Shown here piece by piece: positions 23,699 through 45,790 of a stretch of 64,000 bases of DNA. This DNA is from Verrucomicrobiia bacterium (GTDB taxonomy: Bacteria; Verrucomicrobiota; Verrucomicrobiia; Palsa-1439). Each line of letters opens with the position of its first letter. Position 1 is the first letter of the stretch. The stretch spans positions 62,001-126,000 of the forward strand of contig JAJVHY010000020.1 in the NCBI GenBank assembly GCA_022072455.1. Direction: 5' to 3'. A program made the position numbers and the translations under genes. The notes beneath the pieces were generated by a model. It was not told the DNA's origin and did no database searches. It worked only from the letters and a program-made list of their open reading frames with translations.

Positions 23699-26219
<2,521 letters not shown>

Positions 26220-26237
26220 AAACCTCCATCTGCTTTA

Positions 26238-26283: not shown

Positions 26284-26315
26284 AGACAGGGTGGCGGAGC
26301 CGAAACTGTGTCAAG

Positions 26316-27350
26316 TCAAGCCGAGTGCGACAAGCGGGCACGGAGTGTGGCGAGTTCTTCTTCAATGTGCCGGAGTTTTTCCGGCAGACGTTGGGTGGCG
26401 GCGTTGATTTTTTTGAAGTCTTTGTGCGGGACTGCCGGTGAACCGAGCATCAGCGAGCCGGGCGGTACATCCTTTGTGACACCGGCTTGGGCCATGATGA
26501 TGGATTTGTCGCCGATGGTCAGATGTCCGGCAATGCCGACTTGGCCGGCAATGGTGACGTAGTTGCCGACGATGGTGCTGCCGGCCATGCCGACGAGGCC
26601 GCAGACGATGCAGTGTTCGCCAATGACGCAGTTGTGGCCAATCTGGACGAGGTTGTCTATCTTCGTCCCCTTCCCAATCCGCGTGGTGCCGAAACGCGCG
26701 CGGTCAATCGTGGTGTTGGCGCCGATTTCGACGTTGGCGCCGATGGCCACGTTGCCAAGTTGGGGAATTTTTTGGTGGGCGCCGTTTTTAAGTTCGTACC
26801 CGAAGCCGTCGGCCCCCAACACGACGCCGGTATGGAGAATCACCCGGTCACCGACAACCGTGTGTTCCCGGAGTGTGACACGGGGATAAAAATGACAGTT
26901 GGCGCCAACCGTCGAGCCATGCCCAATGTAACTGCCGGCACCGATCAGGGTATTGTCACCGATGACGACCCCGGCTTCGATGATGACATGGGGTTGGATC
27001 GACACGGCTTGGCCGAGTGTGGCGGTGGAGTGAATGACTGCCGTGGGATGAATGCCCGATTCATGACGGATAGGCGGTGGGGAAATTTTTTGGACGAGCG
27101 CGGCAAAAGCCGACATGGGCTCCCCCACCAGAACCCGCGTGGCCGGCAAGTCAGCATCCATTGCCGGCGGCAAGAGGATGACAGAAGCGCGAGTCGTCTT
27201 GAGCGCAGCGGCGTATTTGGGATGCGCGACGAAGGTCACATCGCCTGGCTGGGCTTCTTTGATGCCCGCCACACCCGTGACAATGATGTCCGGGTTGCCG
27301 GCGAGAGTGCCGCCGGTCAGGCTCGCGATATCGCGGGCGGTAAGCTGCAC
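26316..27350 (-). CDS. lpxD: UDP-3-O-acylglucosamine N-acyltransferase
   Basis: 344 aa. The N-terminal uridine-binding domain ('VTGVAGIKEAQPGDVTFV') is followed by a left-handed beta helix of hexapeptide repeats (~100-290) with the catalytic-region motif 'IGHNCVIGEHC', and a C-terminal helix. It adds the second acyl chain in lipid A synthesis. The start is GTG 27350, two bases after the skp stop, with AAGAAG upstream. The skp-lpxD pairing downstream of bamA is the order seen in many Gram-negative genomes. Confidence 0.95.
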   Translation of the reverse strand: MQLTARDIASLTGGTLAGNPDIIVTGVAGIKEAQPGDVTFVAHPKYAAALKTTRASVILLPPAMDADLPATRVLVGEPMSAFAALVQKISPPPIRHESGIHPTAVIHSTATLGQAVSIQPHVIIEAGVVIGDNTLIGAGSYIGHGSTVGANCHFYPRVTLREHTVVGDRVILHTGVVLGADGFGYELKNGAHQKIPQLGNVAIGANVEIGANTTIDRARFGTTRIGKGTKIDNLVQIGHNCVIGEHCIVCGLVGMAGSTIVGNYVTIAGQVGIAGHLTIGDKSIIMAQAGVTKDVPPGSLMLGSPAVPHKDFKKINAATQRLPEKLRHIEEELATLRARLSHSA

Positions 27351-27352
27351 GC

Positions 27353-27961
27353 TTACTTCTTGTCAACAGCCGGCTTCGCTGCGTCAACCGGCTTGTTTTT
27401 ATTGAGGATTTTCAGGATGTCCTCGGTGATGTCGAGGGCTTCCTGCGAAAAGATGATCGCGGGTTCGCCGTTGGCGGTGTTGCCGGATTTGTCGAAGACA
27501 AGGCTGTAGCCGGCATCGCGGGATTCTTTTTGGATGATGTCGCGGACTTCTTTGAGGATGCCCTGCCGCATGCGCTGGGTCTGTTGGTCGAGCATCTGGC
27601 GATGGGTGGTGCGAAATTCCTCGATGTCGCGCTGGCCTTTTTGGGTTTCGGCGAGTTTGTCGTTGACGGCTTTTTTCTTTTGTTCGCGAACTTCGGCGGT
27701 GTATTCGGGTTTGTCCTGGTCTTCGCGGAGTTTGTTGAGTTCGTCAACGAGCTTGCGGTAGTTGGCCATCAGGGCTTCGTGGTCTTTGTTGTATTGCTCG
27801 GCGGTGTCCTTGAGTTTGGCGGAGGCAATCGGGGTTTTGTAGTACTCGTTGAAGACCCGGTTCAGGTCTATGGTTACGATGCGCATTCCGCCCACTTGGG
27901 CCAGCGCGGTCGTGCCGGTCAGCAGGGCCAAGCCGAGGGTCAATCTCAAGATTTTAGTCAT
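27353..27961 (-). CDS. skp: Periplasmic chaperone Skp/OmpH family
   Basis: 202 aa from ATG 27961 (AGGAAA upstream). Signal peptide MTKILRLTLGLALLTGTTALA, then 'IVTIDLNRVFNEYYKT', a long charged coiled coil (~45-135) and a conserved end 'YSLVFDKSG'. Skp trimers hold unfolded outer-membrane proteins on the way to BamA, whose gene is 43 bp upstream. Confidence 0.92.
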   Translation of the reverse strand: MTKILRLTLGLALLTGTTALAQVGGMRIVTIDLNRVFNEYYKTPIASAKLKDTAEQYNKDHEALMANYRKLVDELNKLREDQDKPEYTAEVREQKKKAVNDKLAETQKGQRDIEEFRTTHRQMLDQQTQRMRQGILKEVRDIIQKESRDAGYSLVFDKSGNTANGEPAIIFSQEALDITEDILKILNKNKPVDAAKPAVDKK

Positions 27962-28004
27962 AGCGTTTCCTTTTTCGTTAACTGTTAAAGCCGGTGGCAC
28001 TATA

Positions 28005-30353: not shown

Positions 30354-31795
30354 TCGCGCCCCCCGCCCGGCAGGTCTTCGTCGGTGATCCGCGCGGCATC
30401 TTCAAACCGGGTGAACTCGTGCCGGAACGTCAACGGCACGTCGCCGGTCGGACCATTCCGTTGCTTGGCGATGACGAGTGTCGCCTTGCCCTTGAGTTGG
30501 TCGCGGGCTTCCAGATCGTCCTCGTAAACTTCCGGGCGAACCAGCAAGCCGACGATATCGGCGTCTTGTTCAATCGAGCCGGATTCACGGAGGTCGGACA
30601 AGCGCGGCTTGCCTTCGTCGCGCGCTTCGGGTTGCCGGTTCAACTGGCTGAGGACGATGACCGGAATTTTCAATTCTTTTGCCAAGGCTTTCACGCCGGC
30701 GGAAATATCGGCCACCTCGACCTGCCGGCTGGACTCGGCGCGGCGGGACGGAGCGCGCATCAACTGCATGTAGTCAATCACGATCAATTCGATGTGAAAT
30801 TGGGAGTGCATCCGGCGGGCGCGGGCGCGGAGTTGGTTGATCGCAAGGCCCGGGGTGTCATCAATGTACATCGGCGCTTTGACCAACTCGCTGGCAGCCG
30901 TTGTCAGCCGGCTGTGGTCTTGTTCTTTTGGATATCCGTCCGAAAGCGCGCGCAAGTTGACGGCACCGCGTGAGCAGAGCATGCGTTTGACGAGTTCTTC
31001 AGACGACATTTCCAAGCTGAACACACCGACTGGTCGGCCTTGATCAATGGCGACACTCTCGGCAATGTTCATTGCCAGCGCGGTTTTCCCCATTGAGGGA
31101 CGGGCCGCAATGACAAACATCGAGCCCGGATGTAGCCCCGTGGTGAGCTTGTCCAAATCGCGAAACCCAGTCGAAAGACCAGTGATGGTGCCACGGTTTT
31201 CGAACATCTTCTCAATGCTGGTCATCGCTTCGTGCACAAGGACCCGGGTGGGCTTCGCACCGCTCGCGGACTTTTCGGAGTTGATGCTGAAAATCTGCTG
31301 CTCGACTTCGTCAATCCAGGTTTTGACTTCGTCCTGTTCGTTGAACGACCGGCTGATGATGTCGTGGGCCGCGTTGATCAGTTTGCGAAGGAGATGCTTT
31401 TCCCAAACGATGTCAATGTAGTGCTCGACGTTCGCTGTGGTGGGGACGTGATTGTAGAGGTCGGCGAGAAAGGCCGGGCCACCAATTTCATCGAGCAATC
31501 CCTTGTTTTGCAGACGCTGGGAGAGCGTAACGGCATCCACTGCTGCCATGCTGTCCTGCAAGCCGGCAATCTCGCGGAAAATAACCTGATGGGTTGCATA
31601 GTAGAAATGCGACTCGTCAAGGCGCTCGCGGACTTGCGCGCCGACTTCCACCGGGCTGAGCAGGATCGCCCCCAGCACCGCCATTTCAGCATCCTGACTG
31701 TTGGGCAGGATGCGGTCGAGCGCCAACCCGGACACGCCACGCGCGCCGCCGAGTGGTGTTGCCTTGTCCGACGCCATGGTTTTTGTCGGAGGCAT
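30350..31795 (-). CDS. dnaB: Replicative DNA helicase DnaB
   Basis: 481 aa. The N-terminal helical domain starts at ~30 ('PNSQDAEMAVLGAIL') and the RecA-like C-terminal domain has Walker A ARPSMGKTA, 'VGVFSLEMSSEEL' and 'IDYMQLM'. No intein is present. ATG 31795 has a poor Shine-Dalgarno; Met7 (31777) is an alternative. It follows rplI as in many bacteria. Confidence 0.96.
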   Translation of the reverse strand: MPPTKTMASDKATPLGGARGVSGLALDRILPNSQDAEMAVLGAILLSPVEVGAQVRERLDESHFYYATHQVIFREIAGLQDSMAAVDAVTLSQRLQNKGLLDEIGGPAFLADLYNHVPTTANVEHYIDIVWEKHLLRKLINAAHDIISRSFNEQDEVKTWIDEVEQQIFSINSEKSASGAKPTRVLVHEAMTSIEKMFENRGTITGLSTGFRDLDKLTTGLHPGSMFVIAARPSMGKTALAMNIAESVAIDQGRPVGVFSLEMSSEELVKRMLCSRGAVNLRALSDGYPKEQDHSRLTTAASELVKAPMYIDDTPGLAINQLRARARRMHSQFHIELIVIDYMQLMRAPSRRAESSRQVEVADISAGVKALAKELKIPVIVLSQLNRQPEARDEGKPRLSDLRESGSIEQDADIVGLLVRPEVYEDDLEARDQLKGKATLVIAKQRNGPTGDVPLTFRHEFTRFEDAARITDEDLPGGGRE

Positions 31796-31816
31796 GAGGG
31801 AGACGGTTTCGGCCGA

Positions 31817-32335
31817 CTATTTCTTCTTGGACTTCTTCGGGCTTTCCGGGGCCGGGACGACGGGAGCAACCGCGGGCGCCCCGCCTTCGGCGGCGACCAC
31901 CCAGATTTTGGCCTTCGTGGCCACGGACGCATGCAGCTTGATGTCCACGTCGTAGTGACCACAGGCCCGAATCGGGTGTTCCAGCACGACCTTCTTCCGG
32001 TCAATCGTAATGCCTTCTTTGGCCAACGCTTCCACAATATCCGCCGCTGTCACCGAACCGAATAACTTCTCATCGGCTCCCGCCGGCGCGCTGATCGTGA
32101 TCGTGCCCTTGGTCAGTTTGCTCTCGAGTTCCTTCGCGGCGGCCAATTCGGCGGCGTGTTCGGCTTCGCGTTTCTTGCGGAGACTTTCAATCCGCTTCAG
32201 ATTCGCTGCCGACGCCGGCATTGCCAGCCCTTTCGGAAAAAGAAAATTGCGGGCGTATCCATCTGCCACTTTGACAGTCGTGCCTTCGTCACCGAGGTGT
32301 TCGACTTTGGTGGTGAGAATGATCTGGGTGCTCAT
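31817..32335 (-). CDS. rplI: Ribosomal protein L9
   Basis: 172 aa, about 20 longer than usual because of an Ala/Pro/Lys-rich C-terminal tail (ends PKKSKKK). The N-terminal RNA-binding domain shows 'LGDEGTTVKVADGYARNFLFPKGLA', then the long connecting helix and the C-terminal domain. Between rpsR and dnaB, the classic order. Confidence 0.95.
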   Translation of the reverse strand: MSTQIILTTKVEHLGDEGTTVKVADGYARNFLFPKGLAMPASAANLKRIESLRKKREAEHAAELAAAKELESKLTKGTITISAPAGADEKLFGSVTAADIVEALAKEGITIDRKKVVLEHPIRACGHYDVDIKLHASVATKAKIWVVAAEGGAPAVAPVVPAPESPKKSKKK

Positions 32336-32349
32336 GGGTCTCCAATTCG

Positions 32350-32598
32350 TTACCGGACCAACAGCATCGCGCGCGCGCGCTTGATCGCGGTGGCGAGTTC
32401 GCGTTGATGCGACGCGCAGTTGCCGGAAAGACGGCGCGACAATATTTTCCCGCGTTCGGTCATGAATTTCTTCAGCAAGTCCGGCTGCTTATAGTCAATC
32501 TTGACTTGGTCCTTGCAGAGCTTGCAGTCGCGCTTGATGATGACGTCGCGCTTGTTCTGGCGCGGCGGGGCGGATTCGTTATCTCGTTCTCTTGGCAT
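32350..32598 (-). CDS. rpsR: Ribosomal protein S18
   Basis: 82 aa. 'CKLCKD', '[19 protein letters not shown]' and '[21 protein letters not shown]' are the S18 signature. The Cys-x2-Cys suggests the metal-binding C+ form. Lies between ssb and rplI. Confidence 0.96.
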
Positions 32599-32616
32599 AG
32601 TCCTTACTCTTTCCTC

Positions 32617-33081
32617 TTAAAATGGAATATTATCGTCGCCGCCACCGGATTGCGGGACGTCTTCTTCAGCCGGGCGGGCGGGCGGTGCTGGGCGGCTGCC
32701 ACCACCGGTACGCGCCGGGGGTTTTTCACTGAACTCGGCATTTCCCTTGGGTGCGCCGATGAATTGGAATGCTTCACAGACGACTTTGAGCTTGCTGCGC
32801 TTCTGCCCCGATTCCTTATCGTCCCATGAATCGAGTTTGAGTCGCCCTTCGATGAAGATGGGCTTCCCCTTCGACATGTATTGGCCGATTGTCTCAGCTT
32901 GCTTGCCCCAGACATCCACGTCTACGAAGGTGACTTCTTCCTTCTTCTCGCCGGACTCGGTAGTCCACGTCCGATTCACCGCCATGCCAATCGTGGCAAT
33001 CGCGGTACCCTTCGGCGTGTAACGCACCTCGGGATCCCGCGTCAGATTCCCCATCAGCATGACTTTGTTGAAATTCGCCAT
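32617..33081 (-). CDS. ssb: Single-stranded DNA-binding protein
   Basis: 154 aa. OB fold at 1-~110 (NKVMLMGNLTRDPEVRYTPKGT, 'FVDVDVWGKQAE'), then a Gly/Pro-rich linker and the acidic tip DDNIPF that recruits partner proteins. It sits between rpsF and rpsR in the usual order. Confidence 0.96.
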   Translation of the reverse strand: MANFNKVMLMGNLTRDPEVRYTPKGTAIATIGMAVNRTWTTESGEKKEEVTFVDVDVWGKQAETIGQYMSKGKPIFIEGRLKLDSWDDKESGQKRSKLKVVCEAFQFIGAPKGNAEFSEKPPARTGGGSRPAPPARPAEEDVPQSGGGDDNIPF

Positions 33082-33087
33082 GACCCG

Positions 33088-33438
33088 TTACCGAGCGGCG
33101 GCGGCGGCGGCGGCAGCGGCCTTCTTTTCGCGGCGCGGTTTATAGGGTTTCTCCGGCACGATCTCGGTGATCTGCCAGCGGAACACTTCATTATCGAGAT
33201 GGAATTTCGTGTCCAATGCGCCAATCGCCTTGCCGGGCGCGGCGAAAATCACATTCACGTAATGTGCGGCGCTGCGTTTGGTGGTCGGGCGCGCGAAGGG
33301 CTTCGGCCCCATCTTCTGCACGGTCTCGACGGTCCCGCCTTGGTGCTCGATTTCCTTTTGCACGCGCTCAATGATGTTTTTCTCGGCGTCTTCATTGCCG
33401 ATCACATCCAAAATCAATAAACCTTCGTATCGTTTCAA
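33088..33438 (-). CDS. rpsF: Ribosomal protein S6
   Basis: 116 aa. 'MKRYEGLLILD', 'EIEHQGGTV' and 'FARPTTKRSAAHYVNVIF' identify S6. It ends in nine consecutive alanines encoded by a GCN microsatellite. ATG 33438 overlaps the pth stop. Confidence 0.95.
   Translation of the reverse strand: MKRYEGLLILDVIGNEDAEKNIIERVQKEIEHQGGTVETVQKMGPKPFARPTTKRSAAHYVNVIFAAPGKAIGALDTKFHLDNEVFRWQITEIVPEKPYKPRREKKAAAAAAAAAR
33095..33121 (+). repeat. (GCG)n trinucleotide tract encoding the poly-Ala tail of S6
   Basis: Nine triplets, nearly all GCG, just before the rpsF stop. Slippage would only change tail length by whole alanines. Confidence 0.8.
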
Positions 33439-34019
33439 ACTTCGTCTCCCTTTTTTCGATTAAACCGATTCATGGCTACCGCAAAACCGTCGCTGAGGCA
33501 ACACTCGATTGCCGCCACTGCTGCACTGACTGCCTCGTCGACTGCCGGTCGCTCCGCCGCGGTGAACCGGCCCAGGACGTGATTCGTGATGTCCGCCCCG
33601 ACCGCTTCGCGGCGCCCGATGCCGACCCGCAACCGGCGAAACTCCTCGCTGCCGAGCGACTCAGTGATCGAGCGCAAGCCGTTGTGGCCGCCGCTCCCGC
33701 CGGCCAGTCGCAACCGCAACTGCCCGAGCGGCAAATCCGCGTCGTCCACGACTACCAGCACCTCGACCGGCGCCAGCTTCAACCAGTTCACCAGCGCGGC
33801 GACAGCCGTGCCGCTGCGGTTCATGAACGTCTGCGGTTTCAACACCGTCACTCGACCGGCTTCACCGACTTCGCCGGCAAACTTCGTCCGGTTTCGCAAA
33901 GAACAATCCAACTTCGCGGCCAATGCATCCACAATCGCGAACCCGATGTTGTGGCGCGTCCCAACGTACTCCTTGCCGGGGTTGCCGAGTCCCACGACCA
34001 GCTTGGGCCGGTCTGCCAC
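33435..34019 (-). CDS. pth: Peptidyl-tRNA hydrolase
   Basis: 194 aa. 'VVGLGNPGKEYVGTRHNIGF' includes the catalytic His, and 'KPQTFMNRSG' and 'GGSGGHNGLRSI' are conserved. It recycles peptidyl-tRNA from stalled ribosomes. The start is GTG 34019 with TAAGG upstream; its stop overlaps rpsF. Follows rplY as in many bacteria. Confidence 0.95.
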   Translation of the reverse strand: MADRPKLVVGLGNPGKEYVGTRHNIGFAIVDALAAKLDCSLRNRTKFAGEVGEAGRVTVLKPQTFMNRSGTAVAALVNWLKLAPVEVLVVVDDADLPLGQLRLRLAGGSGGHNGLRSITESLGSEEFRRLRVGIGRREAVGADITNHVLGRFTAAERPAVDEAVSAAVAAIECCLSDGFAVAMNRFNRKKGDEV

Positions 34020-34025
34020 GGCGCC

Positions 34026-34814
34026 TTACTTCTTGGCGGCCGGCTTCGCTTCGGCCTTGCCAGCCGCGGGCTTCGATTCGGCTTTCGCGCCAGCCGCCGG
34101 TTTGGCCTCGGCTTTGCCGGCTTCGGTTTTGCCGGCGGCAGGCTTGGCTTCGCCTTCGGCGGCTGCTTCGCCTTCTTCCTTCTTCGCTCCGATAACTTCC
34201 GGCTCGCCCGGCGCGCCAGCGGCTGGGGTCGCTTCTTCTTCGGTAATCGGCGCGACGACGAGGAACACCGGTTGGCCCTTGTCATCCAGGAAAGTGACGC
34301 CAGTCGGCGGAACAATTTCCCCGACGTGGATGCTCTGGCCGATTTCGAGTTTCTCGACATTGACTTCCACCACATCCGGCAAGTCCTTCGGCAAACATTC
34401 GACATGGAGTTCGCGCAAAATGAATTCGAGCACGCCCCCGCCGGTCTTGACACCGGCCGGTTCGCCGAGCGGACGCACCGGCACCTTCGTGCGGAGCTTC
34501 TCCGTCGCGAGCACTTCGTGGAGGTCAACGTGCAGAATCGTGTCGGCAAACGGATGATGTTGGACTTCCTGAATCAACGCCAGCCGGTTGCTGGTTTTGC
34601 CATTTTCGTCCACCGCCAAATCCACGAGGACGTTTTCGCCGGTGGCGTGGTGCAGGACTTCGCCCAATTCGCGGGCGTTGACGGTGATACTGAAGGGTTT
34701 GGTGTGCGCGCCGTACACAATCCCGGGAGTGATGCCTTGGTCGCGGAGCTGCTTGACCTTGCCTTTGCCGGCTACGGTGCGAACCTTCGCGTTTAATTTA
34801 ACTTGTTTAGCCAT
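34026..34814 (-). CDS. rplY: Ribosomal protein L25/general stress protein Ctc
   Basis: 262 aa: an L25 5S-rRNA-binding domain (1-~95, 'LRDQGITPGIVYG'), the TL5/Ctc beta domain (~95-190, 'VPVRPLGEPAGVK'), then a ~70-residue low-complexity tail of Ala/Lys/Glu/Pro with repeated KPAAGK units, probably disordered. It lies between prs and pth, a widely conserved order. Confidence 0.94.
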   Translation of the reverse strand: MAKQVKLNAKVRTVAGKGKVKQLRDQGITPGIVYGAHTKPFSITVNARELGEVLHHATGENVLVDLAVDENGKTSNRLALIQEVQHHPFADTILHVDLHEVLATEKLRTKVPVRPLGEPAGVKTGGGVLEFILRELHVECLPKDLPDVVEVNVEKLEIGQSIHVGEIVPPTGVTFLDDKGQPVFLVVAPITEEEATPAAGAPGEPEVIGAKKEEGEAAAEGEAKPAAGKTEAGKAEAKPAAGAKAESKPAAGKAEAKPAAKK

Positions 34815-34833
34815 ACTGATGTTCTCCTAAAAA

Positions 34834-35793
34834 TTAACTTTCGGGGCGGCTCCCATTGATGTCGAAAAGTGAGGAAACCGATTCAGAATTGTGGATGCGT
34901 TTGATTGCTTCGCCCAAAACCGGGGCCACGCTCAACTCGGTGAGTTTGAATCCATTGACCTTTCCATGGGGCACGGTATCGGTTGTGACCAGTTCTTCAA
35001 TTTTGGACTTCTTCAAGCGATCCACTGCTTGCGCCCCCAACACAGCGTGGCAGACGGTGGCGTAGACCTTCCGCGCCCCCTTTGCCTTCAACACTTCCGC
35101 CGCGCGGGTGAGCGTGCCGGCTGTCTCCGTCAAATCATCCACCAGCAGCACGTCCTTGCCTTTCACTTCGCCGACGACGTTCAAAACTTCGACATCCGTC
35201 GCACTCTTGCGTTTTTTGGCGACGATGGCCAACGGCGCGTGGAACACATTCGCGTAAGCCGCCACCATCTTCACGCCACCAATATCGGGCGAAACGACGA
35301 CGAGATTCGACAGGTCTTTCTTCTGAAAATATTTGTACATCACCGGCGCCGCATAGAGGTGATCGACGGGGATATCAAAGAACCCCATGATCTGTTGCGC
35401 GTGCAAATCCATTGTCAACACCCGGTGTGCCCCCGCCGCCACGATCAGATTGGCCACCAGCTTGGCGGTAATGGGCACCCGCGGCTGATCTTTCCGATCC
35501 TGCCGCGCATAACCAAAGAACGGGATGACCGCCGTGATCCGCGTCGCACTGGCGCGCCGACACGCGTCAATCATGATCAACAACTCCATCAAATGTTCAT
35601 TGGCAGGCGGACATGTTGGCTGAATGATGAAAATATCGCGCCCGCGGACGTTTTCGTTGATCTTGACGAATGTCTCTTGATCGGGAAAAGCCTCGACGGT
35701 CGCCTCGCCCAATCGCACACCGACATAGTCAGCGATGCGTTGCGCCAGCGGCCGATTCGCATTTCCAGAGAAAATCTTCAATTCCGGTTCCAC
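34834..35793 (-). CDS. prs: Ribose-phosphate pyrophosphokinase
   Basis: 319 aa. It has 'KIFSGNANRPLAQRIA', the ATP-binding 'GYARQDRKD', and the PRPP-binding 'VLLVDDLTETAGTL'. It makes PRPP from ribose 5-phosphate and ATP. The start codon is GTG 35793 with no good Shine-Dalgarno. The first gene of the minus-strand housekeeping run; its promoter should lie in the ~130 bp before the FG-GAP gene end, where I see no clear boxes. Confidence 0.96.
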   Translation of the reverse strand: MEPELKIFSGNANRPLAQRIADYVGVRLGEATVEAFPDQETFVKINENVRGRDIFIIQPTCPPANEHLMELLIMIDACRRASATRITAVIPFFGYARQDRKDQPRVPITAKLVANLIVAAGAHRVLTMDLHAQQIMGFFDIPVDHLYAAPVMYKYFQKKDLSNLVVVSPDIGGVKMVAAYANVFHAPLAIVAKKRKSATDVEVLNVVGEVKGKDVLLVDDLTETAGTLTRAAEVLKAKGARKVYATVCHAVLGAQAVDRLKKSKIEELVTTDTVPHGKVNGFKLTELSVAPVLGEAIKRIHNSESVSSLFDINGSRPES

Positions 35794-35923
35794 AAAGGTT
35801 CAATCTCGCGAAAAATTAAGGCCACGCCAAACAGCCATGGCCCATCAAGCGAGCCGTCTTTCTACTGTATCAGCCCCGGCATATCAACCTGAATTTTGGC
35901 CCAATTTTCCGGCATCGCCGCGT

Positions 35924-38875
35924 TCATTCCAAACCGACGAGACACAATCGTGGCCGGTACTCCGCCTGCGGCCAGTCGGGACCGCAGAAGTTGTAGCCGC
36001 TACCGCAGGAATACTTGCCGGTGTATTCCGCCCGCACCAACAGACTCACCGATGTCCTGCCAGCTTGCAGGGCTTCCTGCACCGCCCGCGTGACATCCCA
36101 CGTTAGTGTCTGGTGCTGGCGGACCTCCAGAATCGGCGGCGCTTTCGCGAGCAGGACACCACCGGCATCCAACTCTCCTGCCGCCCACGGCTTACCGGTG
36201 GCCGCTTCGGCAAAGGTGGCGGTGGCGGCATCCCACTCATCACGAATCAGGCTGCACGAGATTTCCATTTCGCCACCGGAACCCATGATCGGATACCGCT
36301 CCAGCTTGGGATCAGTCGACAACTCCAGCGTGGCTCGGTCCAGTCGCGCCAGCCGGGGCAGATCGCGAAAGCGGATCAAAATCATTTTCTGTTTCGGCGA
36401 AACCGAGGAAGTCGACCGGGTCATCGTGCGCGCCTCCAGCTTGGCCGGCTGCTTGGGCGGGCGCTGGGTGGGCTTGGTCGCCTCCACATAACACGCCTCG
36501 GTACCGGCATATGCCGGTCCGTTCTGTAAAACGATGCGGCGCCGCGGTGCCGCCACGGCCGTCGCGGTGTCCGAGAGCGGTGAAATCTCCCCGGTGGCTG
36601 TGCTGGATTTCACGGCGATCCGCACCTCTTTGCCCGCCGGTAAAGGCACGCGGACCGTTTGCGTCTCGCCATCCGCCACCGTGTAGTCCCCCTGAATCGA
36701 GGCCAGCCCGGCCCAACTAACTTCGGTGATCAGTTCCCCGTCACTGATACGCAAATCGTATTTGGCGGCAGCAGCCGGTTTGCTCCAGCGCAATTCCGCG
36801 CCTTGCTGTTCAACGCCTGCGACGACCAGATTGGTCACCGCCAACGGCGCGCGGGCCGATGCGCCTTTGAAGTAAACCAAATTGTTGAGCAAATCGGCGA
36901 CGCCATCTCCATCCACGTCGCCAAGAAAGAAATACCGGTAGCCGGCCGAGTACTCGATGGGTACCGGATCGCCGAGGTTTTTGACGAACTTGAAATGCGG
37001 TTCCGCCGTCGAAATGTTCTCGTAAACGCGCAAACCGGTTCGCGGTGGCACATCTTCGAGAACGAGGTCGAGTTTGCCATCGCCGTTCAGATCGAGCACC
37101 GCCAACCCACATTGCGGCGCGACCGATGGCATCCCGATCGCCTGCAACTTGAGCGGCTGGCCGGTCTCGTCGCGACACAAAACATAGTCCTCATACCGGG
37201 GATCGTCGTTGGTGCCCTTGTTAAAGTAGAGCCGGTACTCCTTCTCGAACGGCACTGCCCGACCGGCAGTCATCGCCGTGAGCATCAAGTCAAACTTGCC
37301 ATCCGAATTCCAATCCACGAACACCGGACAACTGCGAATCATTTCCTTGCCGGGATTGGCAATCGCCAGCGGTTTCCGCTCCTGAAACGTCAAACCATCC
37401 GTTGCCAGATCGGAAAACAAATACAGCCGCCCGCCGACACTCATCACCAATCGTTTCTTGCCGCTGCCATCCTCCGGCATCACCGCCACGTAGCTGCCAT
37501 AGATATTGTAGTGACTGCGTTCAAAGGCCGGCGTCTGCGGCACCAAGGCCGGGTCGCCCCGGTAATTGCAGAACCCGGCAAACGCATATTTGATTTCTCC
37601 CGGCCGCGTCGCCACATTCCGGTACAACGCCGTCCGCCGCAGCGCCAACTGGCAATGCGGATCGTAACTCCCATGCAGCAGCAAATCCCGCGACTGCGCC
37701 CCGAACCACGGGACGATTACCGGCTGAAACATAAAACCAAAGCGCGCAAAATCATCGCCCTGCAACACCACGGGCGGGCCGTAGCGCGGGCGCACGGCAC
37801 TGGATTTGGCGGTGTTCGAGTACCAACGAATCCCGGTCAGCGGATCTTGAACAAACAAATCCAACACCCCGCCGCCCCGAATGTCGGCGAATCGGACCTG
37901 CGTTCCCGCCGGAATCGGTTTCTTGGCCGCATCCAACACCGGTTGTGCGGGCTGCAACCGCGCGACATCAGTCGCGCTCACCCGGCGGTACCACATGACC
38001 GCCGGCGCCGTCGGCCAATCCACGCGGAACGCGTTGCACGCATACGCTGTCTCCGTGCTCACCAAATCCGCGATGCCGTCGGCATCCAAATCCAGCACGA
38101 CCGGATTCGGCGCGGCAATGGACTGGCCATCAGGCGTCGTAATCTCCACCCCGCCATCAAACCACGGTTTCGCCCGCGTCCCCAAATTCCGGTAAAAATA
38201 CACCCCCCGCGCCGGCGCTGCCGGCAACTTCACCGTCCAGTTGGCCTCCACCGGATTCGTGGTGGCCACCGACTCCTCTTTGATCCGGCAAATCAGCAGA
38301 TCATCCAAGCCGTCGCCATCCCAATCCGCCGCCGTCAAGGTGACCACTTGCCGGGGGAACACGCCTTTGCCCCAATGCATACTTTCCGGCGCGTGCGTGG
38401 CGCGGGCATTTTCCTTGAGCATCCGCCGGCTGGCCGGAAAAAACGGCGCCGGCAACGCGAGATTCCAATGATTCGGGGCGGCCGTCGTGCCGGTGTTGTA
38501 AACCAACCGCAACTGGCCATCGAACAAGATCAGATCGAACAACCCATCCTGATTCAGATCGCAAACGACCTGCATTTGATTGAAGACCACCGTCTCCGGC
38601 TCCGTCTCCGTGTAATTCATCGGATACCAGAGACTCCGTCCAAATTGCGGCTCAGCTTGGCTGCCCAGATTCCCATGCACCGAAGCAGCGATCATCGAAG
38701 GATTCGGCAGGAACAAATCCAGCCGCCCGTCGCCATTCCAATCCATCAAATCGAACCCGGCATCCGAGTACAATTGTCCCCCCGGCAACCACATCCCCTG
38801 CGCGGCAATCCGCACAAACTCGCCCTGCGCCATCTGACACCACAGCAATAGACCGACGACAAAACTGGCTCTCAT
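35924..38875 (-). CDS. Secreted FG-GAP/VCBS-type beta-propeller protein with C-terminal DNRLRE-like domain
   Basis: 983 aa from ATG 38875. A signal peptide is followed by seven DxNxDGxxDL-type calcium loops (for example DWNGDGRLDL, DLNQDGLFDL, DLNGDGKLDL, DVDGDGVADL), suggesting a seven-bladed propeller over ~20-720. A fibronectin-like stretch follows at ~730-800, then a C-terminal ~170-residue beta domain with 'LTWDVTRAVQEAL' as in DNRLRE domains. Likely an extracellular adhesion or glycan-binding protein. The start overlaps the BNR gene stop (ATGA), so both are made together. An upstream in-frame extension was rejected. Confidence 0.82.
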   Translation of the reverse strand: MRASFVVGLLLWCQMAQGEFVRIAAQGMWLPGGQLYSDAGFDLMDWNGDGRLDLFLPNPSMIAASVHGNLGSQAEPQFGRSLWYPMNYTETEPETVVFNQMQVVCDLNQDGLFDLILFDGQLRLVYNTGTTAAPNHWNLALPAPFFPASRRMLKENARATHAPESMHWGKGVFPRQVVTLTAADWDGDGLDDLLICRIKEESVATTNPVEANWTVKLPAAPARGVYFYRNLGTRAKPWFDGGVEITTPDGQSIAAPNPVVLDLDADGIADLVSTETAYACNAFRVDWPTAPAVMWYRRVSATDVARLQPAQPVLDAAKKPIPAGTQVRFADIRGGGVLDLFVQDPLTGIRWYSNTAKSSAVRPRYGPPVVLQGDDFARFGFMFQPVIVPWFGAQSRDLLLHGSYDPHCQLALRRTALYRNVATRPGEIKYAFAGFCNYRGDPALVPQTPAFERSHYNIYGSYVAVMPEDGSGKKRLVMSVGGRLYLFSDLATDGLTFQERKPLAIANPGKEMIRSCPVFVDWNSDGKFDLMLTAMTAGRAVPFEKEYRLYFNKGTNDDPRYEDYVLCRDETGQPLKLQAIGMPSVAPQCGLAVLDLNGDGKLDLVLEDVPPRTGLRVYENISTAEPHFKFVKNLGDPVPIEYSAGYRYFFLGDVDGDGVADLLNNLVYFKGASARAPLAVTNLVVAGVEQQGAELRWSKPAAAAKYDLRISDGELITEVSWAGLASIQGDYTVADGETQTVRVPLPAGKEVRIAVKSSTATGEISPLSDTATAVAAPRRRIVLQNGPAYAGTEACYVEATKPTQRPPKQPAKLEARTMTRSTSSVSPKQKMILIRFRDLPRLARLDRATLELSTDPKLERYPIMGSGGEMEISCSLIRDEWDAATATFAEAATGKPWAAGELDAGGVLLAKAPPILEVRQHQTLTWDVTRAVQEALQAGRTSVSLLVRAEYTGKYSCGSGYNFCGPDWPQAEYRPRLCLVGLE

Positions 38876-41238
38876 GGAAACGTCACCTCGCCGATTGTGC
38901 CCGACAACGTCCAAACACTTCCATCCGACCGGAGATTCGCTCCGAAAACACGTTCCCCACTGAACGCCAACACGGGCACGACCGATTCCCCAAACCCGCT
39001 CAGAATGATCTGCGGGGCCGACCAGCTCTGGCCGCCATCGGCCGAATAACAACCAAACTGCGTGTTCTGCATGCTCTGATGACTGTACTCCGTCATCGGT
39101 TCCGCCCGCTCCTCGCGTTGCCGCCAGACGACCAACACCCGCTCACCGACAAACGCCACCTCCGGCCCCCAACAATTTCCAAAACCCCGTTGCACCGGCA
39201 CCGCCCCGCTCCACGTCTGACCGGCGTCGCTGGAAAAGGTCGCGTAAATCCGATTCGCTTCACCGTCGTGCTGCTGCCACACCACCACCGCGCGCGCGCC
39301 GGCCATCGCCACGCGGGGACCACCGACGATGCGCAACCCCGTCTGCAACGCCCGCGCTTTCTCCCAGCCCTTCCCGCCAGCCAACGACCGCGCCACCCAC
39401 ACCGAAAAATTGGTGCCGCTCCCGGCAAACCAAGTGGCCACCACCAATTGCCCGGCCACCGCCACCTGCGGCTCCGCCGCTCCGCCGCCGGCAAAAATCG
39501 TCTGCGCCTTTGCCCAAGTCTTGCCGGCATCGGGGGAGCTGACTGCGTCAATCGCACCGCGCCGTCGCCAAACCGCGACCGCGTTCCCCTCCCCGACCGC
39601 CACCGACGGCTGACTCCCCTCCGCTCCGGCAAGCCCCCCGGCACTCTCCCAACTCGCCCCCCCGTCACGCGACCACCCGCCGGCAATCGTCCCCGCCGGT
39701 TGTTGCCAGACCGCAACCGCCCGACTCCCGGCCAACGCCACCGCCGCTGCCATGCCGGTCGCCGTCAGCGTGGAACGCTGCCACGACTCACCGGTGTCAG
39801 CCGAAAAAGCGCCGTGCAGAATCCACTGCTCGTTCTCAAACTGCGGCCAGAGCATGACCGCCTGCTTCTCGGCAAGCGCGAGGCATGGTTCGACCGCATC
39901 GCCAGCCGCGCTCGCGACAACGCGCGGCGCTTGCCAGCGGTCCCCGCCGGTCGAGGAATAATTCACAAACACGCTCCAACTCGACAGCAACGTCAGATGC
40001 ATCCAGATCGCCGCGACCCGGTCGCCGTCCACCGCGACTTGCGGATACCAACCCATCGCCGAACTTGTGTCCAACTGCTGCGGCGTCTGCCACGTCCGGC
40101 CGCCATCGGTCGAGGTGTTGAAAAATGTGCTGAGCGCCGCCCCATCATGCTGCCGCCAAACCACCGTCACGCGCGCACCACTGCTGGCGACGGCCGGATT
40201 ATCGGCTGACCGACTGCCGGTCTGAATCAATTGCGGCCGCTCCCAAGTCGCGCCACCGTCAGCCGAATGGCTGGCCACCACGTGAAACTGCGTCCACACC
40301 GCCACGGCGCTGTTCTCCGAAACCGCGATGTGCGGGAATGAGGCGCGCGTCGTTCCCCATTCCAATCGCTGCGCGGTGCCCCAAGTTTTGCCGCCGTCTT
40401 TGGAATGATTCGTAATCGCGGCAAGACGGCCGGCGACCTCTTGGCACCAGATGACAATCACGTTCAACCCGGCCATGCCGATCTGTGGACAGAACGTCCA
40501 CGAAACCCCGGCGTAAACCTTGCCGGCTCCCTGCTCGATGAATCGCGGCGGTTCCCACTGTTGGCCCCCATCCGCCGAACTGCTCGCCAACAAATCCATC
40601 CCCGCACCGTTGTCTTGTCCCCATACCACCACCACCCGGTCCCCAGCCATGGCGAGACTCGGATCCGCCACCTTCCCGGTCCCGCTGGAAATTTGCTGTT
40701 CGCCTCCCCAACTGATTCCACCATCGGTTGACCGGGCAGTGACGAGCACACTGCCGCCGGCTTCCTCCCGCACCCACACCGCGACCGCTCGCGTGCCGAC
40801 GATCGCGACGCGAACTTCGGTGGCGCGACCGTCACCCTGACTAATTCGCTGCGCCGGCTGCCAGGTGACTCCGCCATCGACAGAACTGCTCCCGGCAATT
40901 TGCGCGACGGCACCCTCATATTGAACCCACACCACCACCACCCGTGAGCCGGACGTACTGAGTTGGGGCGTCATCGCCCCGAGCTTGCCGCTGTCGAGCA
41001 CGCGCGGTTTTCCCCAAGTCACGCCACCGTCCGTGGACGTTGCCGCATCAATCCGGCGCGCCAGACTTCGCTCCCAAACCGCAACCACGTTCGAGCCGGT
41101 CATCGCAATCAACGGCTCCCGCGGCGACCCGCACGCCGGTTGCAGCAACCGCGGCTGTGGCCAGACAATTTGCTGTCCGCCAACCAAAATCGGCCAGACT
41201 AACAGTCCGACCAACGATAGTAGGATGTCCGTCCTCAT
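38872..41238 (-). CDS. Secreted BNR/Asp-box repeat protein (sialidase-like fold)
   Basis: 788 aa from ATG 41238. Signal peptide [21 protein letters not shown]. About 14 Asp-box motifs of the type S-x-D-G-G-x-T-W recur roughly every 50-55 residues ([30 protein letters not shown], and so on), each preceded by a 'VVVVW' strand. Fourteen blades would suit two seven-bladed propellers. I see no sialidase arginine triad, so enzymatic activity is not claimed. It is divergent from the ABC exporter at 41343 with ~100 bp between. Confidence 0.82.
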
Positions 41239-41342: not shown

Positions 41343-42029
41343 ATGCTCGTTCAAATCCGCGAACTGACCAAACTGTACAGCCACGGCGAAATCCAAGTCA
41401 CCGCCCTTGACCGCATCTCGCTCGACATTGCCGGTGGTGAGTTCGTCGCCTTGATGGGGCCCAGCGGTTCCGGTAAGAGCACCTTGCTCCACATCATTGC
41501 CGGCATTGACCGCCCGACCAGTGGCGACTGCCACGTTCGCGACATCAACGTCGCCGACCTCACCGAGACCCAACTCGCCGAATGGCGCAACCACCATGTC
41601 GGGTTCGTCTTCCAAACCTTCAATCTCATCCCGGTCCTGACTGCCTATGAAAACGTCGAACTCCCGCTCCTGCTCACGAGCCTGACCGGCCGCGAACGCC
41701 GGCAACACGTCGAAGCCGCGCTCGAACTCGTCGGGCTCGGCGACCGGATGCGCCACCTCCCCCGGCAACTCTCCGGCGGCCAGGAACAACGCGTCGCCAT
41801 CGCCCGCGCCCTCGTCACCGACCCGACTCTCATCGTCGCCGACGAACCCACCGGCAATCTCGACGCCCATTCCGCGCAAGAAGTCCTCGGTCTGCTGCAA
41901 ACGCTGAACCGGCAAGCCGGCAAAACGATCATCATGGTCACCCACGACCCGAAAGCTGCCGCCTTCGCCCAGCGGACGATTCATCTGGAAAAAGGCCAAC
42001 TCCTCAACGGCAACGGCCAGCATCCGTGA
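41343..42029 (+). CDS. ABC transporter ATPase, MacB/LolD type
   Basis: 228 aa. Walker [10 protein letters not shown], signature [15 protein letters not shown] and Walker [13 protein letters not shown] are all intact. The '[22 protein letters not shown]' Q-loop region is typical of LolD/MacB. ATG 41343 is the first sensible start; a longer frame reaches into the divergent gene. It powers the two FtsX-like permeases downstream and overlaps the first by GTGA. Confidence 0.93.
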
Positions 42030-43174
42030 CAATCCCGGGGTTCATATTGCGGAACGCCTTCCGCAACAAGCGCCGCTTGATTCTCACGATCCTCAGCGTC
42101 GCGCTGTCGCTTTTTCTTTTTACCACCCTGCGAACCGCCTTGGATCTGATGACTGACCCACCGACCACCGACACCGCGGCGTTGCGGCTCGCGGTACGCC
42201 ACAAAGTTTCGCTCGCGAACGTGTTGCCGGAAAAATACCAGTACCGGATCGAACGCGTGCCCGGCGTGGCGGTCTGCTCGAAATTCACGTGGTTCGGCGG
42301 CATCTATCAGGACATCAGCAAAAGCAATTTCGCGCAGTTCGGTGTGGATGCCGACCGGATCCTCAAAATTTTCTCGGAAATGGCAGTTCCCCCGGAACAA
42401 GAGCGCGCGTTTATCCAAGAACGGACTGCCTGCCTCGTCGGCTACAAGCTGATGGAGCGCTTCGGGTGGAAACTCGGCGACCGGATCACGCTGCAAGGTA
42501 CCGCCTGGGGCTGCGATCTCGACCTGACGATCCGGGCGGCGTACCGGGGACAGGGGATTGACGAGACGCTCGTGTTTTTTCACCACGAGTATTTCAACGA
42601 GGCGATGAACAACCTCGGTCTCGTCGGCACCTTCTGGTTGAAGACTGAGAACGCGGAAGTCATTCCATCGGTCATCGCCGAAATTGACAAGGCGTTCGCC
42701 AACTCCGACGCCGAGACCAAGACCGAGACGGAGCGCGCCTTCCAACTCGAATTTGTCTCGATGATGGGCAACGTGCGCCTGTTCCTCGGCTCGATTCTCG
42801 TGGCCATCGTGTTTGCGATGCTGTTGGTCACCGCCAGCACGATGAGCATGGCCATCCGCGAGCGCAGCCGCGAAATCTCCATCCTCAAGGCCATCGGCTT
42901 TGACAGCCGGCAAATCTTCGGGTTGATCCTCGCCGAAGCCTTCGGCCTGGCGATGGCCGGCGGTGCACTGGGTTGTTTCGGCGCGAAGTTTTTCTTCTCA
43001 CACCTCGACATCTACAAAATGTCGCAGGGATTCATCCCGATGTTCCCAATCTCCACAGAGACAATCGCGCTCGGCCTCTTGGTTGCCGGCCTCCTCGGCG
43101 TCGTCAGCAGCCTCGTGCCGGCGTATTCGACACTCAAGACCACGGTCGTGGCCGGGCTGAAGGAGCTTGACTGA
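42026..43174 (+). CDS. ABC transporter permease, MacB/FtsX type (first)
   Basis: 382 aa. One TM segment near residue 15-35, a ~200-residue periplasmic domain, then three TM segments, with '[20 protein letters not shown]' as in FtsX-like permeases. GTG 42026 overlaps the ATPase stop. Such four-TM permeases act by mechanotransmission, moving substrate in the periplasm rather than through the membrane. Substrate unknown. Confidence 0.9.
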
Positions 43175-43217
43175 GGATGAAGGGGCGATTGGGCGAGCGC
43201 GAGAATGGGGGCGACAA
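43175..43217 (+). repeat. G-rich left flank of the S23-type gene
   Basis: Made of short repeats such as GGGCGA and GAATGGGGG. A related sequence occurs on the opposite strand after the gene (43608-43655). Alignment is imperfect and by eye. Confidence 0.4.
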
Positions 43218-43607
43218 ATGTTGATCAAAACTTTTCGCGAGTTGGAGGTTTACCGTGGCGCGATGGAACTCACGATGGAGTTTTTTCGGATCACGAAGCC
43301 ATTTCCGAGTGAGGAACGCTATTCGTTGACTGATCAGATTCGCCGTTCGTCGCGTTCGGTCTGCGCCAATCTTGCCGAAGCATGGCGCAAGCGCCGGTAC
43401 ACCGCGGCGTTCATCTCCAAACTCAACGACGCAGAAGCCGAAGCCGCGGAAACCCAAGTCTGGCTCGAAATCGCCCACCGCTCCGGTTACTTGCAGGAGT
43501 CTGACTTCAAGCGTCTCGACGAAGCTTACGAAAAAGTCCTCGGCCAACTTGTCCGCATGGTCGATCAACCTCACAAATGGGCCATCGGCCCCAAACCAAA
43601 GGAATAG
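43218..43607 (+). CDS. Four-helix-bundle protein of the 23S rRNA intervening-sequence (S23) family
   Basis: 129 aa from ATG 43218. 'TFRELEVYRGAMEL', 'SLTDQIRRSSRSVCANLAEAWRKRR', 'FISKLNDAEAEAAETQVWLEIAHRSGYL' and 'LVRMV' follow the S23/four-helix-bundle family. Function in free-living bacteria is unknown. It separates two permease genes of one exporter. Both flanks carry related G-rich repeats in inverted orientation, hinting that the gene arrived as a unit. Confidence 0.88.
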   Translation: MLIKTFRELEVYRGAMELTMEFFRITKPFPSEERYSLTDQIRRSSRSVCANLAEAWRKRRYTAAFISKLNDAEAEAAETQVWLEIAHRSGYLQESDFKRLDEAYEKVLGQLVRMVDQPHKWAIGPKPKE

Positions 43608-43655
43608 CCGTCGCGCCCACTCACCGTCTCACCCATTCCCCCACTCCTCCTCAAA
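43608..43655 (-). repeat. C-rich right flank of the S23-type gene (inverted relative to left flank)
   Basis: Its reverse complement contains GTGGGGGAATGGGTGAG and GTGAGTGGGCG, resembling the left flank. Such arms could mark the ends of a small mobile unit. Confidence 0.4.
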
Positions 43656-44819
43656 ATGGCCATCCCGCTCAAATACAACCTCCGCAGCATCCGCGTCCGC
43701 TGGCGCGCTACGCTGGCGACAATTCTTGGCATTGCGCTTGTTGTCACGGTGTTCATCTTCGTCCGCTCCTTCGCCCACGGCATGGAAGCCACCTACGTGA
43801 AGACCGGCGACTCCCGCAACCTCATCGTCCTCCGCAAAGGCTCGACCGCCGAATCCAGCAGCCAGATTTCCCGGGAAGACGCCCGGCGCATCAAATACAT
43901 GACCGGCATCGCCCGCGACGAAGCCGGCAACCCGCTCGCGTCTGCCGAAATCATCGTCCTGATCCTGCTCAAGCGCATGGACGGCAGCGGTACCGCCAAC
44001 GTCCTCGTCCGCGGCATCAGCAATACCGCCATCGCGTTGCGGCCCGAAATCAAAATCACCGAAGGCCGCATGCTCCGCGCCGGTCTCAACGAATGCATCG
44101 TCAGCCGCCGCATCGCGGACCGCTTCCAACAATGCCGGGTCGGCGACAGCTTCCAATCCGGCAAGACCACCTGGAACGTCGTCGGCATCTTCGACGCGGC
44201 GCAGACCGCCTACGAATCCGAAATCTGGGTCGATGCCGACGAAGCGCGCTCCGCCTTCAAGCGCAACTTCTATGGCTCCGTCCTCCTCCGCCCCGAGAAT
44301 GATGCCGCCGCTGCGACATTGAAGAAACGTCTCCTCGACGACCGGCTGCTCAGCATCAAAGTCCAGACTGAGACCGAATACTGGGATGAGCAAACGCAGT
44401 CGGCCGGCTTCTACCGATTCCTCGCTTCGTTTCTGGCCATCATCATGAGTATCGGCGCCGCCTTCGCCGCCATGAACACCATGTACGCCGCCGTCGGCGC
44501 CCGCACCCGCGAGATCGGCACCCTGCGCGCCCTCGGCTTCCACCGCCGGCACATCTACATCTCGTTCCTGTTAGAATCCATCGTCCTCTCCCTGCTCGGC
44601 GGCATTGTCGGCGGCCTGATCTCGCTGTCGTTTAACCTCATTTCCACCGGCACCTTCGGCGGCACCTCATTCGCCGAAGTCGCCTTCCAATTTCGCGTCA
44701 CCCCGCAACTGCTCGGCACCGGCCTGCTCTTCGCGCTCATCATGGGCGTAATCGGCGGACTCTTGCCGGCGCGACTGGCGGCGCGCAAACCCGTGCTTGA
44801 CGCGTTGCGCTCCGTATGA
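43656..44819 (+). CDS. ABC transporter permease, MacB/FtsX type (second)
   Basis: 387 aa with the same four-TM layout: TM1 ~20-40, a periplasmic domain to ~260, then three TM segments with 'GARTREIGTLRALGFHRRHI'. 'LPARLAARKPVLDALR' is the usual C-terminal motif. Paired with the permease at 42026 as a heterodimer. Overlaps the membrane-fusion gene by ATGA. Confidence 0.9.
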   Translation: MAIPLKYNLRSIRVRWRATLATILGIALVVTVFIFVRSFAHGMEATYVKTGDSRNLIVLRKGSTAESSSQISREDARRIKYMTGIARDEAGNPLASAEIIVLILLKRMDGSGTANVLVRGISNTAIALRPEIKITEGRMLRAGLNECIVSRRIADRFQQCRVGDSFQSGKTTWNVVGIFDAAQTAYESEIWVDADEARSAFKRNFYGSVLLRPENDAAAATLKKRLLDDRLLSIKVQTETEYWDEQTQSAGFYRFLASFLAIIMSIGAAFAAMNTMYAAVGARTREIGTLRALGFHRRHIYISFLLESIVLSLLGGIVGGLISLSFNLISTGTFGGTSFAEVAFQFRVTPQLLGTGLLFALIMGVIGGLLPARLAARKPVLDALRSV

Positions 44820-45790
44820 ACAAGGTACCCCCGACCATGGACTCCACTGACAACTTGAACCGCCTCGCCATCCCCGCCGAAAAGAAAACCCGGCGCACCA
44901 GTGGCCCGGCATTAATGATTGGCATCGTCCTGCTCGCGCTGCTGACCGGCGGCATCGTCTTCCTCACCGCCGGCAAACCCAAGGGAACCGGCAAACCCGC
45001 GCCCGCGGCCGCCATCACGAACGCGCCGGTCGCCTCACCCGCAAAACCCGGCGACGCCGTCCTCACCGTCAGCGGCTACATCATCCCACGCGCGCGCATT
45101 GAAATCAGCCCACGCTTCCAAGGCACGGTGAAATTCATCAACGTCAAGAAAGGCGATCAGGTGAAACAGGGCGACATCCTCGTGCAACTCGACGACGCTG
45201 AATTCCGCGCCCGTCTTCTGGAAGCGCAAGGCAATCTCGCCTTGTCCGAAGCCAATCTCACCAACGCCGAACTCAATCTCAAACGCCAAATCGAACTCGC
45301 CCGCACCAATGTTGATAGCGAGCGCGCTCGCGACGACGCCCAACGCGCCCGCGACGTCGCCAGCGCCCAAGTCACCGCCGCGAAAGGCGTGCTCGCCTTG
45401 GCGCAGACCTATGTGGATTGGTGTACGATCCGTTCCCCCATCAACGGCACCGTCCTCGAAAAGCTGGTGGACCCCGACGAACTCGTCGTCCCCCAAAGCT
45501 TCGGCGGCACCCGTGGCCCGAGTACCGCGCTCGTGTCGCTGGCCGACCTGAATGACCTTCAGGTCGAAATTGACCTCAACGAAGCCGACCTCTCCAAGAT
45601 TCGGATGAACCAGCGCTGCCGGATCAGCCCCGAGGCGTACATGGACAAGAAATATACCGGCGCCGTCGCCGAGATCGCACCCGAAGCGAACCGCTCCAAA
45701 GGCACGCTGCAGGTCAAAGTCCAAATCGAGAATCCCGACACTTTTCTCACCCCCGAACTCAGCGCCAAAGTGGAATTCATCGCCGACTAA
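44816..45790 (+). CDS. Periplasmic adaptor (HlyD/RND membrane-fusion protein)
   Basis: 324 aa. An N-terminal TM anchor (~33-53), then 'VSGYIIPRARIEISPRFQGTV', a lipoyl half 'KKGDQVKQGDILVQLDDAE', an alpha-helical hairpin (~130-195), the second lipoyl half 'WCTIRSPINGTVLEK' and a beta-barrel domain. It bridges the inner-membrane exporter to an outer-membrane channel; no TolC-like gene is adjacent. Confidence 0.92.
   Translation: MNKVPPTMDSTDNLNRLAIPAEKKTRRTSGPALMIGIVLLALLTGGIVFLTAGKPKGTGKPAPAAAITNAPVASPAKPGDAVLTVSGYIIPRARIEISPRFQGTVKFINVKKGDQVKQGDILVQLDDAEFRARLLEAQGNLALSEANLTNAELNLKRQIELARTNVDSERARDDAQRARDVASAQVTAAKGVLALAQTYVDWCTIRSPINGTVLEKLVDPDELVVPQSFGGTRGPSTALVSLADLNDLQVEIDLNEADLSKIRMNQRCRISPEAYMDKKYTGAVAEIAPEANRSKGTLQVKVQIENPDTFLTPELSAKVEFIAD

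Follow-up and report, generated by a model that had tools for sequence, protein, structure and literature searches.

The stretch of DNA analysed here (the window) is 64,000 nucleotides long and comes from a Verrucomicrobiia bacterium (GenBank assembly GCA_022072455.1, contig JAJVHY010000020.1, positions 62,001 to 126,000 of the forward strand). It contains an ABC exporter operon, in which a LolD/MacB-like ATPase, two FtsX/MacB-type permeases and a HlyD/RND-type adaptor are all encoded on the forward strand; between the two permease genes lies a gene for a 129-residue protein of the S23/IVP four-helix-bundle family, running from an ATG to a TAG codon (Table 1). It scores well above the curated cut-offs of both family profiles (110.2 bits against 33.8 for PF05635, 104.1 bits against 24 for TIGR02436) and is the only gene between two flanking arms, which form the longest inverted repeat of the 901-bp region examined (44 nt, 73% complementary); no transposase lies there. 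The upstream arm starts at the stop codon of permease 1, a TGA at 43172-43174, and the downstream arm ends 2 nt before the ATG of permease 2, so that gene and arms together fill the space between the permeases.

Table 1. Features of the ABC exporter operon and of the S23 element within it (window coordinates).
Feature	Position	Strand	Supporting evidence
LolD/MacB-like ABC ATPase	41343-42029	+	ABC_tran E=4.2e-35; LolD/MacB models E about 1e-68; start codon chosen by eye
Permease 1 (FtsX/MacB type)	42026-43174	+	PF02687 E=6.5e-17
Upstream arm, G-rich imperfect ~8-bp repeats	43172-43215	+	inverted partner of the downstream arm; alignment score 20.0 against a null 99% quantile of 15
S23 / four-helix-bundle (23S_rRNA_IVP) gene, 129 aa	43218-43607	+	PF05635 E=7.2e-32; TIGR02436 E=4.4e-30; solved relatives 2gsc E=3.8e-13, 2rld E=8.6e-9
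Downstream arm	43610-43653	-	inverted copy of the upstream arm
Permease 2 (MacB_PCD + FtsX)	43656-44819	+	PF12704 E=5.8e-17; PF02687 E=3e-16
Periplasmic adaptor (HlyD_D23 / RND_mfp)	44816-45790	+	PF16576 E=2.7e-22; TIGR01730 E=2.1e-42

In a gapped local alignment at the same geometry, 11 of 3895 random places in the window score as high as the two arms (mean 9.7), which corresponds to about p = 0.003 for this copy alone; the case thus rests on recurrence. The repeat unit within these arms is 8 bp (lag-8 identity 0.47 and 0.61, lag-7 identity 0.24 and 0.27), not the 7 bp usual elsewhere. The preliminary description of this locus, made from the sequence alone, had seen an S23-type gene with flanks related in opposite orientation splitting otherwise tightly coupled exporter genes, and this observation is confirmed and proves to extend far beyond the locus.

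The same description had proposed that empty sites between the two permeases be sought in relatives. The permease 2 protein was therefore searched in 57 genomes, the own one included, and the junction upstream of it was read in 25 loci of relatives (loci and genomes are denoted below by L and G numbers). In 15 of these the stop of permease 1 and the start of permease 2 lie within 3 nt or overlap; in three more (L057, L059, L061) a stop lies within about 100 nt, leaving no room for S23; two hold something else, namely an unrelated-looking repeat (L053) and a lone TTTTGAA array (L055, in G034); and five could not be judged, one at a contig edge (L054) and four in distant paralogues (L062-L065). 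None of the 20 readable loci has the gene there. The insertion also parts permease 2 from an AAGGAG near the end of permease 1, which by its sequence looks like the ribosome site of permease 2.

The neighbouring junction of the same operon, between ATPase and permease 1, shows different states. Of 15 loci tried, 13 were readable, and six of them show no array (G010, G004, G003, G007, G008, G034), as does the window. G002 and G006 carry an S23 element; G036 shows its end at a contig edge, with the S23 gene and the ATPase on another contig; G020 keeps only the first codons of S23 joined to the downstream arm, an internal deletion; G013 has a short array; and G028 and G052 have short inverted heptamer pairs without S23, of a different word, which in G052 is also the word of an S23 element about 5 kb away (L081). 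G002, which is filled, and G008, which is empty, are of one genus.

Arms at other S23 genes

Whether the flanks recur at other copies had likewise been singled out in advance as a test, with failure to recur taken as a refutation. As sequence, they mostly do not recur; as architecture, an inverted array of a short word that differs between copies, they do. The own genome has 10 PF05635 matches at nine places, L008 and L009 being two parts of one broken gene. Of the eight scored, L001, L002, L003 (the window copy), L007 and the weak match L010 exceed 15.5, L004 has 15.0, and L005 and the truncated L006 do not stand out; the broken L008/L009 was not scored but has arms by eye. Words differ among them. 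Several intact and broken S23 genes and their arrays are clustered within about 8 kb in L119 (positions 20001-40000 of a contig of the own genome, C7).

For 79 genes of this class, own genome included, the upstream flank was aligned locally with the reverse-complemented downstream flank, taken from the end of the domain because some arms overlap the end of the ORF; 62 reach the 99% quantile of random positions in the same locus and 70 the 95% quantile, against 4 and 6 in direct orientation. Identity at lags 7, 14 and 21 inside the arms is 0.61, 0.60 and 0.54, against 0.25, 0.25 and 0.29 in controls. The 79 remain from 84 distinct hits, after omission of the two fragments each of L008 and L087 and of one hit with too short a flank; many further class matches were not included, and the sample leans to high scorers. 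In a second sample, the best 80 of at least 589 confirmed named loci, from about 19 phylum-level groups (our reading of the records), 60 reach the 99% level and 66 the 95% level, against 9 and 15 in direct orientation, with lag identities of 0.57, 0.55 and 0.52. The 60 cover about 15 of the groups (Verrucomicrobia, Planctomycetes, Acidobacteria, Chloroflexi, Bacteroidetes, Nitrospirae, Cyanobacteria, Proteobacteria, CPR and others), whereas the single WOR-3, SAR324, Poribacteria and LCP-89 loci do not reach the threshold; in all, 17 of 79 and 20 of 80 genes miss it. Several Bacteroidetes copies have units of 8-10 bp. Upstream arms have more G than C on the coding strand in 103 of 122 elements.

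A common end sequence for all copies was rejected on the basis of 66 distinct consensus words among 70 armed genes of this class, although the consensus is crude and also mixes registers. Word and protein are only loosely tied: with pairs in homologous flanks left out, protein identity and arm similarity go together weakly (Mantel r = 0.159, permutation p = 0.0005; Spearman rho over all pairs 0.06). Among pairs at non-homologous sites, 4 of 9 with at least 70% protein identity share the word (L001/L017, L077/L079, L079/L080 and two copies in L104), while the other five do not (L075/L079, 80% identical, differ); 0 of 8 at 60-70% identity and 5% of 61 at 50-60% have similar arms.

The arrays are concentrated at S23 genes. 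At a strict threshold, 404 kb of the own genome, window included, holds four lag-7 arrays, all on one 20-kb piece that carries several S23 genes, and two of them are the arms of the broken one. In the S23 loci there are 2.13 arrays per kb beside the gene and 0.17 per kb farther off; these far arrays include one run of N and some low-complexity tracts. Of 91 far arrays, 36 share the word of the S23 arms in their own locus, against 2.7% of comparisons with arms of other loci. In random sequence the association is weak, with 5 clean lag-7 arrays in 400 kb from S23-bearing genomes and 0 in 400 kb from genomes without (p = 0.06; 1 and 2 low-complexity hits were set aside by eye). Arrays without S23 do exist. 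In one relative (G055) all 13 overlapping matches of a word lay on one 21-kb contig, but in the own genome the word GTCAGRA occurs at about nine further loci, so that words are not strictly local in general. Some of these arrays lie in frame inside genes (L216, L221, L223), for example ahead of what reads by eye like a BRCT domain of a ligase and in a signal-peptide-like region, and in L217, L218 and L219 a recurring stretch, TTCGTGAATNCCACCGGCTCATCTGCCGGTC, directly follows heptamer arrays and looks like a REP-type repeat of this genome. A general class of S23-less mini-hairpins was considered and rejected: a first count gave 15 inverted pairs but also 13 direct partners, and a symmetrical recount gave 26 inverted and 26 direct of 105 far arrays (the N run left out of both), so that only single cases remain, which slightly lowered our confidence in the interpretation given below.

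These observations bear on the simplest alternative, that S23 is an ordinary resident gene of the operon and the arms are replication-slippage repeats that collect in intergenic regions. Heptamer arrays are over-represented in bacteria and polymerase slippage has been proposed for them (PMC4692102, PMC4679880), and arrays without S23 agree with this; but the empty sites in relatives, the density of arrays beside S23, and their inverted rather than direct arrangement there speak against it, and we consider it very unlikely.

Insertion sites, placement and decay

The clearest evidence for mobility is found on cyanobacterial plasmids. Of 28 and 33 plasmid records with S23, nine regions were taken and seven searched for empty counterparts; all seven had them, and an eighth insertion was found on the way. 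On a plasmid backbone 97.6% identical, the empty AAAAAGTAATTAACAAAT becomes AAAAAGTAAT-element-GTAATTAACAAAT, a 5-bp duplication of GTAAT (L267 against L270-L272). On another, 91-93% identical around the site, GGTTCTAGGTTATGC becomes GGTTCTA-element-TTCTAGTTATGC, a duplication of TTCTA with one base fewer after the second copy (L268 against L275, L276, L278, L281 and L282). These two elements are relatives with the same word by eye, and their S23 proteins are 79% identical. In L278 the neighbouring junction of the same operon carries another element, with a duplication of 3 bp exact or of 5 bp with one mismatch; the other five pairs show a 7-bp repeat with mismatches beyond (L284) or replaced or unclear target bases (L283, L285, L287, L266). 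A clean 5-bp duplication is thus seen in 2 of the 8 insertions read, and none is readable in the window copy, which leaves undecided whether target duplication belongs to these elements as a rule. On the chromosome, no empty-site comparison was made for L002.

A further strain has a truncated copy at the L267 site (L274); L268 also carries a roughly 270-bp stretch of arrays of the same word without S23, which is absent from L278; and beyond the downstream arm in L278 (1590-1672) lies a short stretch resembling the start of an S23 gene, as if a second copy had been reduced there. The element in L266 (2410-2920, Picosynechococcus PCC 7003 plasmid) lies between cmr2 and cmr3 of a type III-B CRISPR operon and is absent from the PCC 7002 plasmid.

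The protein, and not only the DNA, is kept. dN/dS is 0.07-0.14 in the six pairs with measurable divergence (L104, L267/L268, L267/L283 and L285/L286 at different sites; L014/L074 and L082/L032 at homologous sites); three further pairs are saturated at synonymous sites and two are nearly identical, one of these (L267/L273) with 0.86 on very few changes. The solved relatives 2gsc and 2rld have five chains each, and the X. campestris protein is described as a homopentamer (PMC4990558).

The elements sit mostly in junctions of co-directional genes. Of 106 armed elements with neighbours within 400 bp, as predicted by a crude ORF finder, 78 lie between two genes of their own direction, 25 have one such neighbour and 3 none; one plasmid copy (L287) points against its operon. 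Among same-strand neighbours the median gap is 3 nt from the upstream stop (n = 89; 52 within -10 to +25 nt) and 12 nt to the downstream start (n = 92; 53 within that range).

In 7 of 123 elements a frame is open through the whole element, although no chance level was computed for this; in L010 it is the S23 frame itself, and L086 and L145 have no family match. The remaining four, the open-frame hosts with a family match, are all DNA methyltransferases: two BREX pglX genes with the element at the same place, perhaps one event (L012 / L225 7298-11731 in G040, in an operon with BrxC, PglZ and BrxL; L011 / L224 11267-13567 in G055, beside an RT_UG5-nitrilase gene), a type III Mod-like gene (L182, 552-4043) and an N6 methylase (L194, 2733-4550). 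In the pglX genes the host frame stays open through the element in another frame, and in G040 several more heptamer arrays lie in the same open frame. In L012, residues 52-328 match one PglX model at positions 1-271 and the match resumes at residue 520-521, at positions about 298-305 of related models; the element lies in the gap.

Interpretation and relation to known systems

These considerations suggest, with fair confidence, a transposon-like element of about 0.4-0.6 kb, consisting of one S23 gene between two inverted arrays of a short G/A-rich word and without a recognisable transposase. The idea of the preliminary description, a minimal mobile unit whose ends are the arms and which carries no transposase, is thereby supported, even though the failure of the flanking sequence, for the most part, to recur would by its own criterion refute it. 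What the analysis shows directly is that such elements are present or absent at defined orthologous sites, in two cases with a clean 5-bp duplication, with the arms as their ends; that related S23 genes with the same word occur at unrelated sites; that the two arms of a copy share a word which most other copies do not; that S23 is kept by selection; that single copies decay to internal deletions or truncations; and that most copies lie close to the stop and start codons of co-directional genes. It is by inference only that S23 recognises its own arms and recruits a host or helper enzyme making a 5-bp staggered insertion, that fold-back copying of one arm from the other keeps the arms alike and lets the word drift, and that the arms pair in mRNA, so that the element loops out and the host operon stays usable, as in 23S rRNA intervening sequences, which RNase III removes. 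No recombinase has been identified, either in the element or in trans. The window copy, with its 8-bp units and no readable target duplication, looks like an old insertion of this kind.

A reading at the level of RNA, in which the arms exist because RNase III must cut the element out of the transcript, selection on the RNA stem keeps them complementary, and spread happens through RNA, appears unlikely. In its favour are the architecture of the Coxiella 23S rRNA intervening sequence, with a 28-bp terminal stem, RNase III excision and tandem GACAGAT heptamers upstream of S23p (PMC4990558), the co-directional bias, and the strong pairing of sense arms (mean duplex -47.6 kcal/mol, against -14.5 for mismatched arms); the window RNA folds with z = -2.93, the arm stem being part of its minimum by eye. 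Cutting of transcripts was not measured. However, G-U pairs are not favoured over A-C mismatches between the arms, A-C being nominally commoner (159 against 203; p = 0.024 per mismatch, 0.14 per element), for which reason selection on the sense stem as the sole keeper of the arms was rejected and upkeep at the DNA level is favoured, although the stem may still make the insertion tolerable. An RNA route would further need a reverse transcriptase, but no RVT_1 match was found in the own genome (95.6% complete, with its 10 PF05635 matches), and reverse transcriptases are not significantly commoner in S23-bearing genomes (14 of 40 against 4 of 17; Fisher p = 0.54), so that RT-dependent spread is rejected as a requirement. 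A stem alone explains neither tandem units nor target duplications.

Equally doubtful is a non-autonomous, MITE-like element moved by an ordinary transposase in trans, with S23 a passenger or a stabiliser of the arms. The lack of a transposase inside and the existence of deletion derivatives would fit, and a Y1 transposase family is found in 37 of 40 S23-bearing genomes against 9 of 17 without (Fisher p = 0.0014). This association is at the level of genomes only and is confounded with their size and mobile-element load, so that it does not tell whether a Y1 enzyme is linked to the element, and HUH enzymes do not make 5-bp duplications. A fixed transposase would hardly tolerate terminal sequences that differ from copy to copy, and keeping S23 under a dN/dS of about 0.1 is odd for a passenger.

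A more far-reaching possibility, which we hold only tentatively, is a transposon class of its own, spread over much of the bacterial tree, in which a four-helix-bundle protein of the Avd/S23 fold together with its own array of repeated 7-10-bp words is the mobility system. The ends would carry no family-wide sequence, lineages having their own word and both ends being rewritten together, the element could even lodge inside coding genes with the host frame left open through it, and the 23S rRNA intervening sequences would be the members that landed in rRNA. The S23 family has no assigned function, and the origin of 23S rRNA intervening sequences was still called unclear more than 25 years after their discovery (PMC4990558); both may be one testable thing, a mobile element found by its ends rather than by a transposase. 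It also offers one possible source of the heptamer repeats over-represented in bacteria, and raises the question of how both ends of a copy can carry the same word when other copies carry another.

In the open-access literature searched, no description was found of S23 elements in protein operons or of heptamer arms as their ends; several related systems are, however, described. Tandem heptamers, GGGAATC in Xanthomonas and GGGGA(C/T)T in Nostoc, are mostly intergenic, with 70 and 75 inverted pairs in two Xanthomonas genomes (PMC4692102); there one word was studied per organism, the repeats are not described as ends of an S23 element, and the terms S23 and four helix do not occur in the main text. 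X. campestris does have an S23 protein (XCC0516 = 2gsc), whose gene was not examined for such arms. TAACTGA repeats have also been reported (PMC4679880). MITE, RAYT-REP and NEMIS-type elements are likewise short inverted-repeat elements in transcribed intergenic DNA, but have family-wide conserved ends, where the elements described here have copy-specific tandem ends and an S23 gene. The Avd accessory protein of diversity-generating retroelements, to which PF05635 has been linked (PMC10053308), is a distant sequence relative of the window protein (bAvd E=2.8e-6 and DivGenRetAVD E=2.8e-5, both below the curated cut-offs); in the absence of an RVT_1 match there is no retroelement in the own genome.

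The closest parallel is provided by the S23p-encoding intervening sequences of 23S rRNA genes in Coxiella, Leptospira and others; IVP ORFs are also reported in CPR rRNA insertions (PMC11270868). In Coxiella an S23 ORF likewise lies between inverted repeats, in an element of 428 nt that has tandem heptamers next to the S23 start, is called selfish and is excised by RNase III (PMC4990558). The window copy shares with these an S23 ORF between inverted repeats that form a stem, but lies in an ABC operon and not in a 23S rRNA gene, and an Rfam scan of 40 of the 80 named loci (the others were not scanned) gave no rRNA match. Here the hosts are protein operons, the word varies from copy to copy, empty sites and two target duplications are seen, and arms are found in about 15 phylum-level groups.
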